64,000 bases of DNA from Bacteroidales bacterium. Lineage in GTDB: Bacteria; Bacteroidota; Bacteroidia; Bacteroidales; UBA1715. Positions 68 to 59,100 of this stretch are shown here, one piece after another (the first letter of the stretch is position 1; each line of letters begins with the position of its first letter). A program made the translations under genes and the position numbers. The stretch is taken from NCBI GenBank assembly GCA_024409235.1, contig JAKSUA010000007.1, forward strand, positions 1 to 64,000. The letters run 5' to 3'. The notes under the pieces are model-generated. The model saw only the letters and a program-made list of their open reading frames with translations, did no database searches and was not told where the DNA came from.

Positions 68-1807
68 TTATTTAACGGAAGGATTTTTTGCTCGTTTGTC
101 AAGTTTTACTCTCTTTATTTTACCTTTTTTGTATTTCGCAAAATAAACTAATTCGCCTCTAACTTCGTAAGCTTTATAGTTACCATGACGTTCACCATCT
201 TTGTAATTAGATTCTTCTTTTAAAGGTCCTTCTTTGTAACGAATAATCCATTTTCCATTAGGGCGTTCGTCTTTAAACGAAATGTTTCGTTCGCATACTC
301 CTGATTCGTTATAGTATTGCCATGAACCAGTCATCTTTCCTTTTGAATATTCTCCAATAATATTTGGTTTGCCATTAAGGAAGTATGTTTTAGAACTTCC
401 GTGTAGGTCGCCGTTTGCATAATTTTTTTCTGACTGAACGATTCCTTTTTCGTTCCAATATGTTGCTGTACCGTGATTTACACCTTTCTTATATTCAACC
501 TTATATTTAATCTGATCTGGATTTTCTTGATACCAGCCAGTCCAAGTTCCTGTCATCAAGCCTTTTTCAAAGTAACCAATTGTCATTGTACGGCCGTTTT
601 CAAACCATTGAGTAAACTCTCCGTTTTCAAGGTTGTTTTCAAATGTACCAGCGTGTTCTTTTTGTCCATTCTCGTAATAGAAAGTCCAATTACCTGTTTT
701 CATATCATTTTGGTAGTCACCTTCTTTCCAGACAGCTCCATCGGCGTAATACCAAATCCAATGTCCTGTTTTCTTACCTTGAGAGAAATTACCTGTATTT
801 CCAATTTTTCCATTATCATGACGATAATAAATCCATTTACCATCTTGTAAATCATTTACAAATGAACCTTCCATGTCAAGCTCTCCTGTAGGTAACCACC
901 ATTTTGCAGAACCGTTTTTCTTATTGTCTTTATATTCTATTGCAGAAAGTTGTTGGTTTCCATCTTCTGTCCATATTTCTTGAAGCCCGTTTAATGCACC
1001 TTCTTCATAATGATTTTTTCTGATAATTTTTCCTTCGCTATTCCAGACAGTCCAGTCACCATGTTTCTTTTCGTTACGGAAAAATCCTTTTGACTGCATA
1101 TTCCCGTTTTCAAAGTAGCTTTCGTATGTGCAGTCCGTCATACTCGTTTTTTCTTTGATTTTTCCGTTTTTGTAATATTCAATCCAGTTTCCTACCTTTT
1201 CTCCTCGTCTGTAAACACCTTTTGAATTTAGCGTGTTGTCTTCGTGATAAGAAATCCATTCTCCTTCTCTATATCCGTCTTTTATTGTTCCTTGGGTTTT
1301 TATGTTACCAGACGACGGCCATGTTTCCTGATACGTTCCGTTACCGTTAGAAACCAAACATCCGCCTCGAATATAGCAGTTATTCCAAATTAGGACAGTG
1401 TCATTCTTGTAGATGTATTCTTTCTTTAACATTCCTTGAGGGTAAAAGTATTTCCATGAAGAGTCTTGCTTGTTACGTTTGTAATAGCCTTCAACCATTT
1501 TTTTACCTTCATCATTCCATTCTGTGTATGGACCAGATAATTCGTTTAAAACATACGTTGCTTCCTGAATCTTTACACCATTTTTGTAAATTATGTTCTT
1601 TCCGTTTAAACGTCCTCTTAAAAATGTTGATTCCTGAATTTTGTTTCCTAAAGAATCCCAGTAAGTCCATAAACCTTGTTCTGTTCCATCAACCCATGAA
1701 CCTTTTGCTTTTGGTTTTCCGTTTTTCCAATAATAAGTGGAGTCTTGAGCAAACGTTTGAATTCCTAAAAAAAGAATTGAAAAGATGAAAATGCTTATTT
1801 TTTTCAT
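68..1807 (-). CDS. Secreted MORN-variant (MORN_2/YwqK-like) repeat protein
   Basis: A 579-residue protein starting with a clear Sec signal peptide (about residues 1-20, ending FAQ). The rest is an almost uninterrupted array of units of about 23 residues with the pattern G-x-W-x-x-Y-x-x-x-G-x-x-x-x-x-G-x-Y, roughly two dozen in all, as in the MORN_2 family often labelled YwqK antitoxin. I see no catalytic motif and no lipobox. The last residues are Lys/Arg-rich (KRVKLDKRAKN) and there is no type IX sorting domain. The array should form a long beta-hairpin solenoid in the periplasm or on the outer membrane; ligand and role are unknown. It lies downstream of the ilv operon but is separated from it by a strong terminator, so it is probably transcribed alone. 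I found no good -7 box upstream. The family call is secure, the function is not. Confidence 0.8.
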   Translation of the reverse strand: MKKISIFIFSILFLGIQTFAQDSTYYWKNGKPKAKGSWVDGTEQGLWTYWDSLGNKIQESTFLRGRLNGKNIIYKNGVKIQEATYVLNELSGPYTEWNDEGKKMVEGYYKRNKQDSSWKYFYPQGMLKKEYIYKNDTVLIWNNCYIRGGCLVSNGNGTYQETWPSSGNIKTQGTIKDGYREGEWISYHEDNTLNSKGVYRRGEKVGNWIEYYKNGKIKEKTSMTDCTYESYFENGNMQSKGFFRNEKKHGDWTVWNSEGKIIRKNHYEEGALNGLQEIWTEDGNQQLSAIEYKDNKKNGSAKWWLPTGELDMEGSFVNDLQDGKWIYYRHDNGKIGNTGNFSQGKKTGHWIWYYADGAVWKEGDYQNDMKTGNWTFYYENGQKEHAGTFENNLENGEFTQWFENGRTMTIGYFEKGLMTGTWTGWYQENPDQIKYKVEYKKGVNHGTATYWNEKGIVQSEKNYANGDLHGSSKTYFLNGKPNIIGEYSKGKMTGSWQYYNESGVCERNISFKDERPNGKWIIRYKEGPLKEESNYKDGERHGNYKAYEVRGELVYFAKYKKGKIKRVKLDKRAKNPSVK

Positions 1808-1993: not shown

Positions 1994-2539
1994 TTATTCA
2001 ATAGTATAGAAATAACTATTGTTTTTGTCATCCATATATTCGTCCAATGTCTTCATTGGTTTTGTAATGATAACTCGGCCGGAACGAATGAATTCCAAAA
2101 TTCCAAGTGGACGAAGTTTTTCCAACAAATCTTGTGTTTCCTGAGCAGTTCCTGTTTTTTCAATAACAAAATATTCTTGTTGCATATCAAGAATACGGGC
2201 ATTATTTTCACGGATAAAACGACCCATATTTATCATCTTTATTGCCGACATAGGCATTTTGTACAATGCAAGTTCTTGTGCAATAAGTTGGTCTTCTTCA
2301 TAGTAAAAAGCCTTGATAACTTCAACAAGTTTGTCAATTTGACTGGCAACTTTCTCAACCATTGATTTTGTTGAATTAACAACTATGGTGAAACTGTGAA
2401 TTCCCTTAATCTGTGATTCTGAAACAGTTAAACTTTCAATGTTGATTTTTCGGCGTGTGAAAACAATAGTGATTTTATTCAATAAACCAATATGGTTTTC
2501 AGTAAAAGCCGTGATTGTATATAATTTCTTTTCTTCCAT
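1994..2539 (-). CDS. ilvN: Acetolactate synthase small (regulatory) subunit
   Basis: A 181-residue regulatory subunit of acetohydroxyacid synthase, which makes 2-acetolactate or 2-aceto-2-hydroxybutyrate in valine, leucine and isoleucine synthesis. The N-terminus carries an ACT domain (about residues 5-80; ITAFTENHIGLLNKITIVF), where valine feedback usually binds. A second regulatory domain follows and ends with the family pattern TGTAQETQDLLEKL...GILEFIRSGRV. It starts 5 bases after the ilvB stop codon, so the two are surely co-transcribed and probably translationally coupled. A terminator follows. ilvC does not follow ilvN here and must lie elsewhere. Confidence 0.95.
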   Translation of the reverse strand: MEEKKLYTITAFTENHIGLLNKITIVFTRRKINIESLTVSESQIKGIHSFTIVVNSTKSMVEKVASQIDKLVEVIKAFYYEEDQLIAQELALYKMPMSAIKMINMGRFIRENNARILDMQQEYFVIEKTGTAQETQDLLEKLRPLGILEFIRSGRVIITKPMKTLDEYMDDKNNSYFYTIE

Positions 2540-2544
2540 ACTCG

Positions 2545-4227
2545 TTATTTTATTTTCATTTCTGAAACACCTGCACCTGGTTCTACCATTGGTAGAATAT
2601 TTTCTTCTGGTTCAATTGCTACTTCCAATACATATGGTTTATCGTCGGCTAACATTTCGTCTATTGCGGCAGACAAATCTTTGCGTTCAACAACGCGTTT
2701 ACTTGCTACATTCCAACCTTTTGCAATTGTAACAAAGTCTGGACCGGCAATATCAACGAAAGAATAACGGCCGCCAAAGAACATTTCTTGCCATTGGCGA
2801 ACATTTCCAAGATAAGTATTGTTCAAAAGAACAATCTTTAATCCAATATTGTTTGCCGACATAGTACCAAGTTCTTGTGCTGTCATTTGGAAACCACCAT
2901 CACCAACAAATGTAATTACTTGTTTTTCTGGACGTGCGACCTTTGCTCCAACCCCAGCAGGAATGCCATACCCCATAGTTCCTAAACCACCAGATGTAAG
3001 AATTTCAGAACCTTGTTTGAATTTATAGTAACGACAAGCAGCCATTTGGTTTTGACCAACATCGGTTACAACTATCGCAGAACCTTTTGTTTTCTCTGAA
3101 ATCATATTGATAACTTCACCCATTTTAATATCGCCTGATTTTGGATGAATTGCTTTCTCTATGACTTCGTCAATTTCAATCTGACGCAATGGTTTAAAAC
3201 TTTCTATCCATTCTTTGTGATTAGCAGTTTTTACCGATTTGCTCAAAGCATCCAATGCTGTTTTTGCATCACAATTGATAGAAACTGTTGGATGAATCAA
3301 TTTTCCGATTTCAGCCTGATCAATTTCTATATGAATAATCTTAGCCTGCTTTGCATATTTATTCAAATTACCTGTTACACGGCTATCAAAACGAAGACCA
3401 ACACCAATAATCACATCGGCTTCGTTCGTTTTTAAATTTGCCGCATAACTTCCGTGCATACCAAGCATTCCCACATAATTTGGATGATCGTTATCCATAC
3501 CATTTAGGTTCATAATTGTTGCCGCAACAGGAATATTTGCTTTCTCTGAAAGAGCAGCCAATTCTTTCTGTGCGCGACTTAAACTTACACCGTGACCGGC
3601 AAGAATAAGTGGTTTTTCCGCATTGTTGATTAACTCAACCGCTTTGGCAACATCTTCTTCGTTCAACTTTGGATATGGATAATAACCACGAACATACGTA
3701 CAAGGAGTATATTTCGTGAAATTACATTCATTAACCAAAGCATCTTTGGTAATGTCAATTAAGATTGGACCAGGACGACCTGTTTGTGCCAAATAGAATG
3801 CTTTTGCAATTATTTCTGGAATTTCATCTGCCGATGTTACCTGATAGTTCCATTTTGTGATAGGCATTGTAACACCAATAATATCAACTTCTTGGAACTC
3901 GTCAGTACCCAACGATTGTGACACGACTTGTGCTGTTATTGCTATAATAGGTGTTGAATCAATCATTGCATCTGCAATACCTGTCACAAGATTGGTAGCA
4001 CCTGGACCTGATGTTGCCATACACACACCGACTTTTCCCGTTGCTCGTGCAAAGCCCTGAGCAGCATGAACAGCACCTTGCTCATGACGAGTTAGAATGT
4101 GATTAATTTTATCTCCGTAATAATATAGTTTGTCATACAAAGGCATAATTGTTCCGCCAGGATATCCAAAAACGGTCTTTACACCTTCTTGTAATAAACA
4201 TTGTAATAAAGCTTCTGCGCCTGTCAT
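2545..4227 (-). CDS. ilvB: Acetolactate synthase large (catalytic) subunit
   Basis: A 560-residue thiamine-diphosphate enzyme. Visible features: the N-terminal GYPGG motif (residues 21-25), the catalytic Glu49 in RHEQGAVHAAQG, the SGPGATN stretch, a central FAD-type domain (GLRFDSRVTG) and the C-terminal ThDP motif VGDGGFQM...LNNTYLGNVRQWQ. Length is normal for the family. It is the middle gene of ilvD-ilvB-ilvN and works with the adjacent ilvN product as holoenzyme. The gap to ilvD is 61 bases and holds a GC-rich palindrome that could tune expression or mRNA ends. The ATG at 4227 gives the expected N-terminus. Confidence 0.97.
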   Translation of the reverse strand: MTGAEALLQCLLQEGVKTVFGYPGGTIMPLYDKLYYYGDKINHILTRHEQGAVHAAQGFARATGKVGVCMATSGPGATNLVTGIADAMIDSTPIIAITAQVVSQSLGTDEFQEVDIIGVTMPITKWNYQVTSADEIPEIIAKAFYLAQTGRPGPILIDITKDALVNECNFTKYTPCTYVRGYYPYPKLNEEDVAKAVELINNAEKPLILAGHGVSLSRAQKELAALSEKANIPVAATIMNLNGMDNDHPNYVGMLGMHGSYAANLKTNEADVIIGVGLRFDSRVTGNLNKYAKQAKIIHIEIDQAEIGKLIHPTVSINCDAKTALDALSKSVKTANHKEWIESFKPLRQIEIDEVIEKAIHPKSGDIKMGEVINMISEKTKGSAIVVTDVGQNQMAACRYYKFKQGSEILTSGGLGTMGYGIPAGVGAKVARPEKQVITFVGDGGFQMTAQELGTMSANNIGLKIVLLNNTYLGNVRQWQEMFFGGRYSFVDIAGPDFVTIAKGWNVASKRVVERKDLSAAIDEMLADDKPYVLEVAIEPEENILPMVEPGAGVSEMKIK

Positions 4228-4288: not shown

Positions 4289-6118
4289 TTATTCTATGAT
4301 TCGTACACCACCAAGATCGGCCGATGCAACATTTTGTGCATATACTTTTAATGAATTTGGCACAAAGCGTTCTCTGTTTGGTTTGAATGCTTGTTTGCCT
4401 TTTGCCAATTCTTCTTTTCTACGATTTTCTAATTCTTCATCAGAAATTAAAAGTTCTACTTTTCGATTTGGTATGTCAAATAAGATTTGGTCGCCATTAC
4501 GAACCAATCCAATTTCACCACCACTTGCAGCTTCAGGAGAAACGTGACCAATAGAAAGACCAGATGTTCCTCCAGAGAAACGACCGTCAGTAATCAAAGC
4601 ACATGCTTTTCCAAGATGTTTTGATTTCAAATATGATGTTGGGTACAACATTTCTTGCATACCTGGACCACCTTTGGGACCTTCGTAAATAATTACGACA
4701 ACATCGCCTGCTTGAATTTCATCTTTGATAATTGCATCACACGCATCTTCTTGAGAGTGATATACTTTAGCGTTTCCTTTGAATGTAAACAACGATTCGT
4801 CTACACCAGCAACCTTAACAATACATCCTTCTTTTGCAATATTACCGAAAAGAACTGCAAGACCACCATCTTTTGTATAAGCATGATCAATATCGCGAAT
4901 GCAACCTTCTGCACGATCCTTGTCAAATTCTTTATACATAGTGTTTTGAGAACCCATTTTAGTAGTTCTGTCACCTTTTGGTGCACTCTTATAGATTTCT
5001 GTAAGATTAGCATCTGCAGAGCTACGAAGAATATCGTAAGTATTCAAAGCTTCAGCCAACGTCATACCATCAACACGGCGAACACTTGTATCAAGAAGAC
5101 CTTTTTGGTCAAGAACACCAAGAATACCCATTACACCACCTGCACGGTTTACATCTTCGATATGGTATTTCTTAGTATTTGGAGCAACTTTACATACACA
5201 TGGAACTTGACGAGACAATTGGTCTATATCCTTCATCTTAAATTCAACACCAGCTTCGTGAGCAACAGCCAACAAGTGAAGAACCGTATTTGAAGAACCA
5301 CCCATTGCGATATCCATCTTCATTGAGTTCAAGAATGCTGCACGAGTTGCAATTGAGCGTGGAAGTACCGAAGTGTCTCCATCTTCATAATATTTCTTTG
5401 TATTTGCTACGATTTGTTTTGCTGCACGAACAAACAAATTTTCTCTGTTAATGTGAGTAGAAACAATACTTCCGTTTCCTGGCAAAGACAATCCCAATGC
5501 TTCTGTCAAACAGTTCATTGAGTTTGCTGTAAACATACCAGAGCAAGAACCACAAGTAGGACAAGCATTCTTTTCTACGGCATCAAGCGTTGCATCGTCA
5601 ACATTAGAATCAAGAGCCATAACCATAGCGTCAATCAAGTCATATTTTTCTTTATTGATTACGCCGGCTTCCATTGGGCCACCAGAAACAAATATTGTAG
5701 GAATGTTCAAACGCATTGCTGCAATCAACATACCCGGAGTGATTTTATCACAGTTGCTAATACATACAAGAGCATCAACTTTATGTGCATTACACATATA
5801 TTCAACACTGTCGGCAATAATTTCACGAGAAGGCAACGAGTACAACATACCAGTGTGTCCCATAGCGATTCCATCGTCAATAGCAATAGTATTGAATTCA
5901 GCCGCGAAACATCCTTCTGCTTCTATTGCAGCCTTAACTTTTTGACCGATTTCGTGTAAATGAACATGACCTGGCACCAATTGAGTGAATGAGTTTGCGA
6001 TAGCAATAATTGGCTTACCAATTTGTTCTTCTTTCATACCATTTGCACGCCATAAGCTTCGTGCACCAGCCATCAATCGGCCTTGTGTAGATGTTTCACT
6101 TCTTAAAGGGAATCCCAT
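4289..6118 (-). CDS. ilvD: Dihydroxy-acid dehydratase
   Basis: A 609-residue Fe-S dehydratase that converts 2,3-dihydroxy-isovalerate or -methylvalerate to the 2-keto acids of Val/Leu and Ile synthesis. Cluster ligands are visible as NCDKITPG (Cys123) and [10 protein letters not shown] (Cys186, Cys189, Cys192). The C-terminal part contains the family signature [14 protein letters not shown] ([11 protein letters not shown]). Length matches the long IlvD form. It is the first structural gene of the operon and is preceded by a leader peptide and an attenuator-like terminator (6152-6292), so all three enzymes are probably controlled by charged branched-chain tRNA supply. Confidence 0.97.
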
Positions 6119-6151: not shown

Positions 6152-6192
6152 CTTCAAAACAAAAGCACCATACTCTAAGAGAATGGTGCTTT
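6152..6192 (-). promoter_or_regulatory. Attenuator terminator in the ilv leader
   Basis: A perfect 10-bp stem (AAAGCACCAT with ATGGTGCTTT, arms 6183-6192 and 6162-6171), followed on the minus strand by the T-rich tail TTGTTTTG, 34 bases before ilvD. A terminator just upstream of a biosynthetic gene and just downstream of a leader peptide is the hallmark of attenuation. Its promoter-proximal arm can instead pair over 8 bp with GAATGGTG (plus coordinates 6211-6218), forming an antiterminator. That segment can in turn pair with CATTCA inside the leader peptide gene (6224-6229). These are the three alternative pairings 1:2, 2:3 and 3:4 of classical attenuators. Confidence 0.85.
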
Positions 6193-6219
6193 CTTAATTG
6201 TATAGTCAAACACCATTCA

Positions 6220-6267
6220 TTACTGAATGACATCCACGACTACCACATATATTGTATTGTAAAGCAT
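6220..6267 (-). CDS. ilv operon leader peptide (Val/Ile-rich)
   Basis: A 15-codon reading frame encoding MLYNTIYVVVVDVIQ. Five of fifteen codons are Val (four in a row), two are Ile and one is Leu, as expected of a sensor peptide for branched-chain aminoacyl-tRNA. It begins about 17 bases after a -7 promoter box. Its TAA stop codon lies in the loop of the CATTCA/TGAATG hairpin. A ribosome stalled on the Val run would cover arm 1 and free arm 2 to form the antiterminator. A ribosome reaching the stop would cover arm 2 and let the terminator form. No strong Shine-Dalgarno is visible, which is usual in this phylum. Inferred from codon content and RNA pairing. Confidence 0.8.
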   Translation of the reverse strand: MLYNTIYVVVVDVIQ

Positions 6268-6283
6268 TTTTATTTCTTTTTTG

Positions 6284-6291
6284 CAAAGATA
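6284..6291 (-). promoter_or_regulatory. -7 box for the ilv operon
   Basis: TATCTTTG on the minus strand matches the Bacteroidetes -7 consensus TAnnTTTG exactly. The predicted start, about 6-8 bases downstream, leaves only about ten bases before the leader peptide ATG. I do not see a convincing -33 TTTG at the usual spacing. Confidence 0.7.
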
Positions 6292-6402
6292 CAAATTTAT
6301 TTCAAAAAAGTATTGCTCTCAAATAAAGAAAACACGCTTTTTTCAAACTGAAAAGAAAGGTTTTTTAGTAAAAAGTGGATTTGTGTGAGATTTTGTAGTT
6401 TT

Positions 6403-56159: not shown

Positions 56160-59100
56160 ATGATGAAAAAAATATATCTATTGGGCTTGCTATGCACAAT
56201 TTTTGCTATAAATGTGTTTTCACAGGCATTAACGTACAATCCTTCTCTCTTTATAAAAACAGAAATAAATGTTGGAAATCCGGCATATCCGTTCCCTCAA
56301 TTCTTAGAGTACAAGGGGGGTGGAAAGTCTTTGGCGAAGTATAATGCAGAAGGTGTTACGCACGCGGATATGGAAAAAACGATGCGTGAGGCATACGAAA
56401 TTATGATGCACCGTTGTCGCTATATGGGTGGTACGCACTGTGGTGTGCCATACATTACATTTAACCATGAAAGTGTTCCGGGTAACTATGGAACATTCGT
56501 ATCCGAAGGTGATGGTTATGCATTGCTTGCAGCTGCAATTTTTGCAGATCAAAAGACATTCAATGGCTTGTACATGTGGATTCACGATAATCGTTTCAGT
56601 GGTGTGAAAAGATTTCAGGACGGCCGTGTGCTTCGTGCAACGGCGAATGATTATGCAGGTCCTTATTTGGCTGGATGGCAGTGTGATGAAACTACGACAA
56701 GTATGTCGCCTTCTCACTCGGCAACAGATGGTGACGTCGATATAGCGATGGCGATGCTGATTGCTTATAAACAATGGGGTGAGTGGATGAAGCACGATGG
56801 TGAGATTGTTAAAGATTATGCAGGAAATCCAATTTCATTAAAATACGAAACGCAACGTGTTGTAGGAGCTTTGGTTGACACGTTAGGACAATGGGATCCT
56901 GGAAGTGGAGCTTTGACGGGAGAACTATGTGGTGTTGTTGGTATTGACGGTTATGAAAAACGTGGAAACTCTTGGGGGGAATTAACTCGTTGGCGTTTTA
57001 CTGCAGAGGCTAATGCAATGTACCCTAATGTAAATGGACCATATAATGGAGGACCGAATCTATATGGAATATATGGAGGAAATTATATTGATTATGATGC
57101 TCCTTCGTACTTCGAGGAATTCTGGCGTTGGTTGAAAAATGGTGATGGAGTTGATGAAAACAATAAAGTGATGGCTCCGTGGGAAATCCATCAGTTTAAA
57201 CGTGCTGCGGCATCGGGTAACTGGCTGAACCAACAGGCGTATGAACAAGGTTATCAGGCGTCTATTGGTCAGGTTATGATGTCTGAGGATGGGAAACCAA
57301 CATTCTCTGTTTATGTGGGAGGTGAAGATTTCCGTTATCCATGGCGACATATGATGGATTATTTGTGGCATGGAAATGCAGATTATGATTGGGATCCAAA
57401 AACTCATCAGGTAATAGAAGGGAAAGTGAACAGATCTGAGTATGATATGGGGATGAGACATGCAGAACTGTTGAAAAATCCAACAAATGGTGGAAAACAA
57501 TTGTGTTCGAAAATGGGAGCATCTCCAGATCCTGGACAACCTTTATGGTTTGGTGTGTCTCAAATACCACAGCAATGGAACTTAGACGGTACAGTTGGGC
57601 AGGATTATCACACGGTATATTCTCCGGGTGCGGGTTCTCCAGCTGCTGTTATTTCAGGAGACTTGGATTTGTTGGCAGATATATATCGTCAGTGCGAATT
57701 GTTGTGGGATGGTAACAATACTGCTGCGAAGTTGGATCCTGAAGAAAGATATATCGGTAGCACTCCAAAATATTTCCATGGTTGGTTCCGTGTTCTTGGC
57801 TTATTAGTTTGTTCAGGAAATTTAGCTGCTCCTGAGGATATGAAACCGATTGCAAATATGAAAGTATATATGTCGGTAGATAAAACATACGCATACGAGG
57901 GCGATAAGGTTGGTTACACTGTTCAATATAGAAACTACGGAACTTTGGACGCCAAGGACGTAAAGATTCAAACTCCGCTTGATCCAGATTATACTTTTGT
58001 AAGTGCAACAAAAGGTGGTGTATATGATCCAGCAACGCATTCAATTACTTGGAATATAGGTACAGTTCCTGGTTTTAAAACAGGAGGGTTGGCTGCAACT
58101 CAGGATTCGGTTGCGTTTACGGTAAGAATAACAAGTTTGGAAAACTCGCGTGTATGCGAAACAAGTACAATTACAGGTTCAAATTTCGATGAATGGGTTA
58201 GTAACGAATATCCAAACCACGCAACATATACAATGGAACGCAACTGCGTAGATGTCTTGGCAAATCGTAGTTTGGTGTTGGAGAAAACGGCAAATAGAAC
58301 AGAATTGAATCCAAATGATGTTGTTACATTCACGGTTAATTTTGAAAATGTGTCGTCAGATGATGCATGGATGAATGGTGGGCGCGATAATGTTCGTTTG
58401 TCATATGGTAACTATTATATGCAGGGAAGTGCGTATCAATTTTATCATTTGTATCGTTTTTGGAATGATTCGTACGAGGCATATATAAATATGAGCAACT
58501 ATCGTTTGTCTTATTTTATGTATGACGCAGCTGCACAAGGTTTGTATGATGCAGCAAAAAATCCGACAGGATGGACATTTGTGGTGGATAACCAAAATGA
58601 CCTTGACAAATACGGATATAATCCAGAAACAGGACCGATTACTTTTGCTTACCAGAAAATTCCACAAGGAGAAGATGAATTTGGAAAATGGAATCAGCGT
58701 TTGATGATTCGTTTTGCCGATGTGTTGATGGCACCTTCTACTCATGTGTATGACAAATTGGATTCACAATATTTATTGCATAAAGGTGTTTGGGGACCAG
58801 GTTTTATTCGTGCTCGTTTGGCTTCGAATCCATATTCAGACTTGTCTACTCGTGTACAAGATGACTGGTCATTCTCTACGGATATTACGGCAAAAACTAT
58901 TGATGGTCAAGGTGAAACATTTACGTTGGTAACACCTTGTTGGGCAAATTACGATGATTTAGGTTACGAAATTGATAACTATTCTCGTCATACATGTAGT
59001 GCTCCAACATCTAAATTGAAAAATTTTGAAAGGGTTTTAGTTGAAGAATTCGATGGTTATACTTGGCGTCGTATTCAAGGTCGTGGACCGCTTCCTGGAA

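Follow-up and report, generated by a model that had tools for sequence, protein, structure and literature searches.

Transcription of the ilvD-ilvB-ilvN operon is very probably controlled by ribosome-mediated attenuation of the trp/his/ilv type, at an element located upstream of ilvD on the minus strand of the window (the whole 64,000-nucleotide stretch analysed). The first-pass annotation had described a complete leader-peptide attenuator of these three genes, and this description was supported by the anatomy of the locus, by the identities of the genes, which were assigned with NCBIfam equivalog models, and by a comparative test in related genomes. The features of the operon and its leader were as follows.

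1994..2539, minus strand: ilvN, acetolactate synthase small subunit (TIGR00119, above cut-off)
2545..4227, minus strand: ilvB, acetolactate synthase large subunit (TIGR00118, above cut-off)
4289..6118, minus strand: ilvD, dihydroxy-acid dehydratase (NF009103 and TIGR00110, above cut-off)
6153..6161, minus strand: U-rich tail TGTTTTGAA of the terminator (sequence)
6162..6171, minus strand: region 4, ATGGTGCTTT, 3' arm of the intrinsic terminator 3:4 (fold; changes on both sides of three pairs in the family)
6181..6192, minus strand: region 3, AAAGCACCATTC, used by both antiterminator 2:3 and terminator 3:4 (fold and duplex tests)
6202..6219, minus strand: region 2, TGAATGGTGTTT (6219-6208) and GACTAT (6207-6202) (fold and duplex tests)
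6224..6243, minus strand: region 1, GTAGTC (6243-6238) and GGATGTCATTCA (6235-6224), within the Val codons (minimum-energy fold)
6220..6267, minus strand: leader ORF, MLYNTIYVVVVDVIQ and a stop (sequence; branched-chain-rich leaders before ilvD in homologues)
6284..6291, minus strand: promoter box TATCTTTG, Bacteroidetes-type -7 element (TAnnTTTG) of the operon (sequence)

The leader MLYNTIYVVVVDVIQ consisted of 15 codons and a stop (ATG CTT TAC AAT ACA ATA TAT GTG GTA GTC GTG GAT GTC ATT CAG TAA), and 8 of its 15 residues were Val, Ile, or Leu. The control codons were Ile6, Val8-11, Val13, and Ile14. No Shine-Dalgarno-like sequence was found upstream of the leader ORF, and the Bacteroidetes phylum is thought to use Shine-Dalgarno initiation little. 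A TATATTTG-like box was present at the position corresponding to the promoter box in close homologues. In the minimum-energy fold, regions 1 and 2 formed a protector hairpin of about 17-18 bp (6243..6202), whose loop contained the stop codon and whose 5' arm consisted largely of Val codons. The 15-codon leader, its eight branched-chain residues, and a stop in a hairpin loop had all been recorded in the first-pass annotation and were all present, on the minus strand. The annotated 1:2 pairing CATTCA/TGAATG was also present, but its length had been understated at 6 bp; the hairpin extended into the Val codons. Similarly, the 2:3 pairing GAATGGTG/CACCATTC was found where 8 bp had been reported, but the antiterminator was actually 11 bp long (6218..6208 with 6191..6181). 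Region 2 had two alternative partners, region 1 in the protector hairpin or, through 6218-6208, region 3 in the antiterminator. The 3:4 pairing AAAGCACCAT/ATGGTGCTTT of 10 bp with a T-rich tail was present as annotated; together with an inner CTC/GAG, it formed a terminator of -15.5 kcal/mol followed by TGTTTTGA. This tail was interrupted, with 5 T of 8, and termination may therefore be incomplete. After ilvN, a repeat protein (68-1807, minus strand) resembled the LIC20035 adhesin family (NF033566) at a level below threshold, scoring 153 bits where the cut-off is 250.

The term "translational" attenuation, under which the element had been annotated, is used for the erm/cat-type control of translation initiation and was wrong here, because the output of the switch was an intrinsic terminator upstream of the ilvD start. 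Systems in which translation of the leader governs ribosome access to the start codon also combine a leader with alternative hairpins, and elsewhere in the phylum there were ilvD leaders with no terminator whose hairpins adjoined the start codon. The 3' hairpin of the window locus, however, carried a U-rich tail and ended 43 nt before the ilvD ATG (6118), no pairing with the ilvD start region occurred in the predicted fold, and the terminator-type architecture was kept throughout the Bacteroidales leaders tested. Control of ribosome access to ilvD was thus considered very unlikely as the function of this leader.

Statistical tests were carried out on the components of the element and on their combination. 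The 2:3 duplex was better than those of 300 dinucleotide shuffles (p = 0.003). The leader alone was no more than moderately surprising in AT-rich DNA, with its score reached by 7 of 100 shuffles, and would not be convincing by itself; it was regarded as certain because its core was conserved in the genus. A composite search required a branched-chain leader, a stop 10-60 nt before a terminator, and a 2:3 pairing of at least -12 kcal/mol. The ilvD site was by far the best in the 64-kb window (-15.5 and -15.9 kcal/mol), and one other, marginal site passed (58315-58447, plus strand, -9.6 kcal/mol). No site passed in six shuffled windows searched on one strand each.

Within the genus, a core of 45 nt, GTGGTAGTCGTGGATGTCATTCAGTAATGAATGGTGTTTGACTAT, which ran from the Val codons through region 2, was identical in all seven genomes examined, synonymous positions included. 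The third codon positions of ilvD in the other six genomes were 50-75% identical to those of the window. The N-terminal half of the peptide varied (MLYNTIY, MLYNIVT, MLLETVF, and MILETVF). Such invariance might be expected if the leader RNA or peptide acted mainly in trans, as a small RNA or small protein, with the terminator merely making its 3' end, and the trp leader of Sinorhizobium is reported to yield a leader peptide that acts in trans (PMC7298713). However, the conservation of the core was already explained by the triple overlap of the codons, 1:2, and 2:3. Moreover, the cis pairing was kept between genera while the sequence diverged, and the genome held no second copy of the core except for an AT-rich, promoter-like match. 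A mainly trans-acting element was consequently judged extremely unlikely. It is improbable, too, that the core has a second role beside attenuation, in which the terminated leader RNA or peptide would act in trans when valine is plentiful; if true, this role would couple the branched-chain supply to a wider response.

Family members outside the genus had leaders of different sequence, but the anatomy of the attenuator was kept. The gene ilvD was found in 12 of 14 family genomes, and all 12 carried a leader before it, such as MNRIFNIVLVVVVISSIQRKV, MNNLLHTVHVVRIILKLK, MKNLLNIVLVVVVVISEMK, and MKFFQTIVVVQVIFQM, each with its own 2:3 pairing. This pairing was assessed in the family by duplex tests on each sequence instead of alignment columns because region 2 shifted its register between genera. 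The terminator contained three pairs with changes on both sides within the family, and its covariation score was 0.128, compared with 0.053 for shuffled sequences; sliding the partner gave no more than 0.043.

The distribution beyond the family was examined in 80 loci with IlvD homologues from public genomes, whose upstream regions were scanned. A branched-chain-rich leader preceded ilvD in 39 of the 59 loci labelled as Bacteroidota and in none of the 21 labelled as other phyla. Roughly one in three of the loci labelled as Bacteroidota, including many with the label Prevotella, had no detectable leader. Examples of the leaders were INLAVLHIIRVVVV... in Bacteroides/Phocaeicola and MYSGLFIIINLILVVLRR in Alistipes, and others were found in Prolixibacteraceae and Marinifilaceae. 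With family and phylum members added, the test set for the terminator and the 2:3 pairing comprised 63 leaders. A terminator, defined in this comparison as a hairpin of -10 kcal/mol or lower plus a U tract, was found in 56 of the 63 leader-bearing upstream regions, compared with 14 of 35 leaderless regions and 25 of 63 reverse complements. Among the 58 leader-plus-terminator loci, 51 had a 2:3 pairing stronger than that of shuffled sequences (p<0.05), although their sequences differed between genera. Since the loci share ancestry, combined p-values would overstate their independence, and these counts give prevalence and not independent events. Region 2 mostly started no more than about 5 nt from the last base of the stop codon; in the long leaders (L076, L102, and L108-L113), a wider search region placed it further upstream, inside the coding part. 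The protector pairing 1:2 was clear in the window and reached p<0.05 in 16 of 49 loci, with weak support outside the genus. Overall, the comparison of ilvD upstream regions in related Bacteroidales, which the first-pass annotation had proposed as a check, showed that the branched-chain runs and the 2:3 pairing were kept across genera.

The same comparison bears on whether the element is a riboswitch or T-box that binds a metabolite or a tRNA directly and whose short ORF is fortuitous. A layout of terminator and antiterminator is common to these classes. Outside the genus core, however, the primary sequence was not conserved between genera and the runs of Val, Ile, and Leu codons were, and an Rfam scan of the whole 64-kb window, which covered the T-box and riboswitch families, gave no match at gathering thresholds. 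Direct binding of a ligand is therefore exceedingly improbable.

We infer a course of attenuation in which the start of transcription, leader translation, the signal from charged tRNA, and termination would proceed in the cell as follows. RNA polymerase would start just downstream of TATCTTTG, and a ribosome would follow on the leader. When Val-tRNA, together with Ile-tRNA, is plentiful, the ribosome at the stop would cover region 2, so that 3:4 would form and transcription would stop short of ilvD. A shortage of Val-tRNA or Ile-tRNA would stall the ribosome on the Ile or Val codons, where it would cover region 1; 2:3 would then pair while region 4 is still to be synthesised, the terminator would not form, and ilvDBN would be transcribed. 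If the leader is untranslated, 1:2 and 2:3 would compete. This logic was evaluated with a ribosome-masking calculation, in which the RNA was hidden up to and including the 12th nucleotide after the first A-site base, and the free part was folded to the end of region 3; the values are computed ones that assume a 12-nt footprint and equilibrium folding. In the window, the predicted probability of 2:3 was about 0.8 with A-site codons from Ile6 to Val13 and 0.6 at Ile14. At codons 2-5 it was 0.1-0.4, and the stop gave 0.07. The predicted antiterminating stall codons were the Ile and Val codons because earlier stalls left 1:2 free to form. Averaged over the 58 loci, the probability of 2:3 was 0.78 with the ribosome on control codons and 0.20 with the ribosome at the stop, and 2:3 was often predicted to form in the calculation without a ribosome. 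The ilvDBN operon may be subject to further control beside the attenuator, including by a protein regulator.

Ribosome-mediated attenuation is textbook knowledge for Proteobacteria, with the ilvGMEDA, ilvBN, trp, and his operons of enterobacteria. The element described here shared with the enterobacterial attenuators a short leader with runs of end-product codons, a stop adjoining region 2, the competition among 1:2, 2:3, and 3:4, an intrinsic terminator, and a cognate biosynthetic operon. It differed in the ilvD-ilvB-ilvN order, the Bacteroidetes promoter, a leader with no Shine-Dalgarno-like site, the predominance of Val codons, and the weak 1:2 pairing in many relatives of the window locus; no sequence homology is claimed. 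The first-pass annotation gave attenuation of this design as best documented in proteobacterial operons; in the literature it is not confined to Proteobacteria, as seen from RF01692, Flavobacterium psychrophilum, and the actinobacterial ilvB leaders. RF01692 (Bacteroid-trp), the "Bacteroidete tryptophan peptide leader RNA" (Rfam; PMC2864571), is likewise a leader-peptide attenuator in Bacteroidetes, but for another amino acid and operon. The ilvD leader did not match its model in the scan of the whole window, and the trpE leader of a family relative was a weak match to it, with 41.7 bits where the cut-off is 49. Transcriptome maps of Flavobacterium psychrophilum gave strong clues for leader-peptide attenuation before amino-acid operons; these candidates share the phylum and the proposed mechanism, whereas the main text of that paper names no ilv genes and its relevant passage has no order-wide comparison (PMC9723704). 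Short ORFs resembling attenuation leaders were reported in Bacteroides thetaiotaomicron (PMC7366714). Leader peptides with terminators are also known for the actinobacterial ilvB (PMC1262725) and for ilvBNC of Corynebacterium glutamicum (PMC11857589). The actinobacterial elements had in common with ours a branched-chain leader, a terminator, and an antiterminator before acetolactate synthase genes, but differed in phylum, gene order, and the leucine codons marked in their leaders. No literature naming an ilvD leader in Bacteroidales was found; the survey of attenuation in bacteria by Lopatovskaya 2010 (Mol Biol 44:128; cited in PMC4833913) might list some. The type of switch is well known, and the order-wide distribution of the predicted ilvD attenuators in gut and environmental Bacteroidales is hardly documented before.

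Leaders of the same kind were present before other amino-acid operons, which were looked at one by one in the window genome. A Leu leader, MNRFQLDILLLLLVSKC with its stop, was located before leuA (L193:6755-6808, plus strand), and its pairing segments GCTAAGGGG, CCCCTTAGC, and GAGGGGTTTTTT provided an antiterminator and a terminator. A very short His leader (MIHHHSI and a stop) followed by a terminator was located before hisG (L192:about 2340-2420, plus strand), and another genus had the His leader MKHIHHHI. Leu-rich leaders were kept in most of the family relatives and His leaders in several. In two further genera of the family (L197, L201, L205, and L206), Trp leaders (IWWW) stood before trpE, and none was found before trpE of the window genome. 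Because the trpE leader occurred in these two genera and was absent from that of the window, it was apparently lost or replaced within the family. Near the leu region of the window genome, a SAM-II riboswitch was also found (RF01726, 65.5 bits, L193:4251-4310, minus strand).

Ribosome-mediated attenuation requires a ribosome close behind RNA polymerase. Because of this requirement, the predicted ilvD attenuators across Bacteroidales, together with the leaders of the Leu, His, and Trp type within the family, argue for the coupling of transcription and translation, at least in these leaders, and the ilvD leader would be a ready reporter for the question of coupling in Bacteroides. The attenuator also allows the synthesis of branched-chain amino acids to be annotated for regulation in abundant gut bacteria, where the Rfam scan gave no match.

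Several ilvD loci of other lineages had different arrangements. In Desulfobulbaceae and their relatives (L046-L050, L055, L061, L086, L096, and L099), IlvD was 67-72% identical to that of the window and the leader was absent, which suggests that the gene of these Desulfobacterota-labelled loci was transferred without the attenuator. In another part of the phylum, a Val/Leu/Ile-rich leader preceded ilvD with no intrinsic terminator (L211, L212, L213, L215, L243, L244, L247, L250, and L252; also L217, L163, L155, and L216). The motif x (GGTCAAYCC) lay about 4-10 nt after the stop of these leaders and was followed by y (GGGGTTGACC) and then z (CCCC), whose end was 3-20 nt before the ilvD start; the pairings x:y and y:z were mutually exclusive. 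Four of these loci were tested against Rfam and gave no match. The arrangement looks like a leader-controlled translational switch. In Labilibaculum, Marinifilum, and Marinifilaceae (L108, L112, and L113), two tandem Ile-rich leader-plus-terminator units, MQFNSVIIISVIIRVLLDTIRG and then MLSFKVVIIVIIISIVIIRM..., were located in the 450 nt before ilvD, and such an arrangement would give a two-step attenuation.
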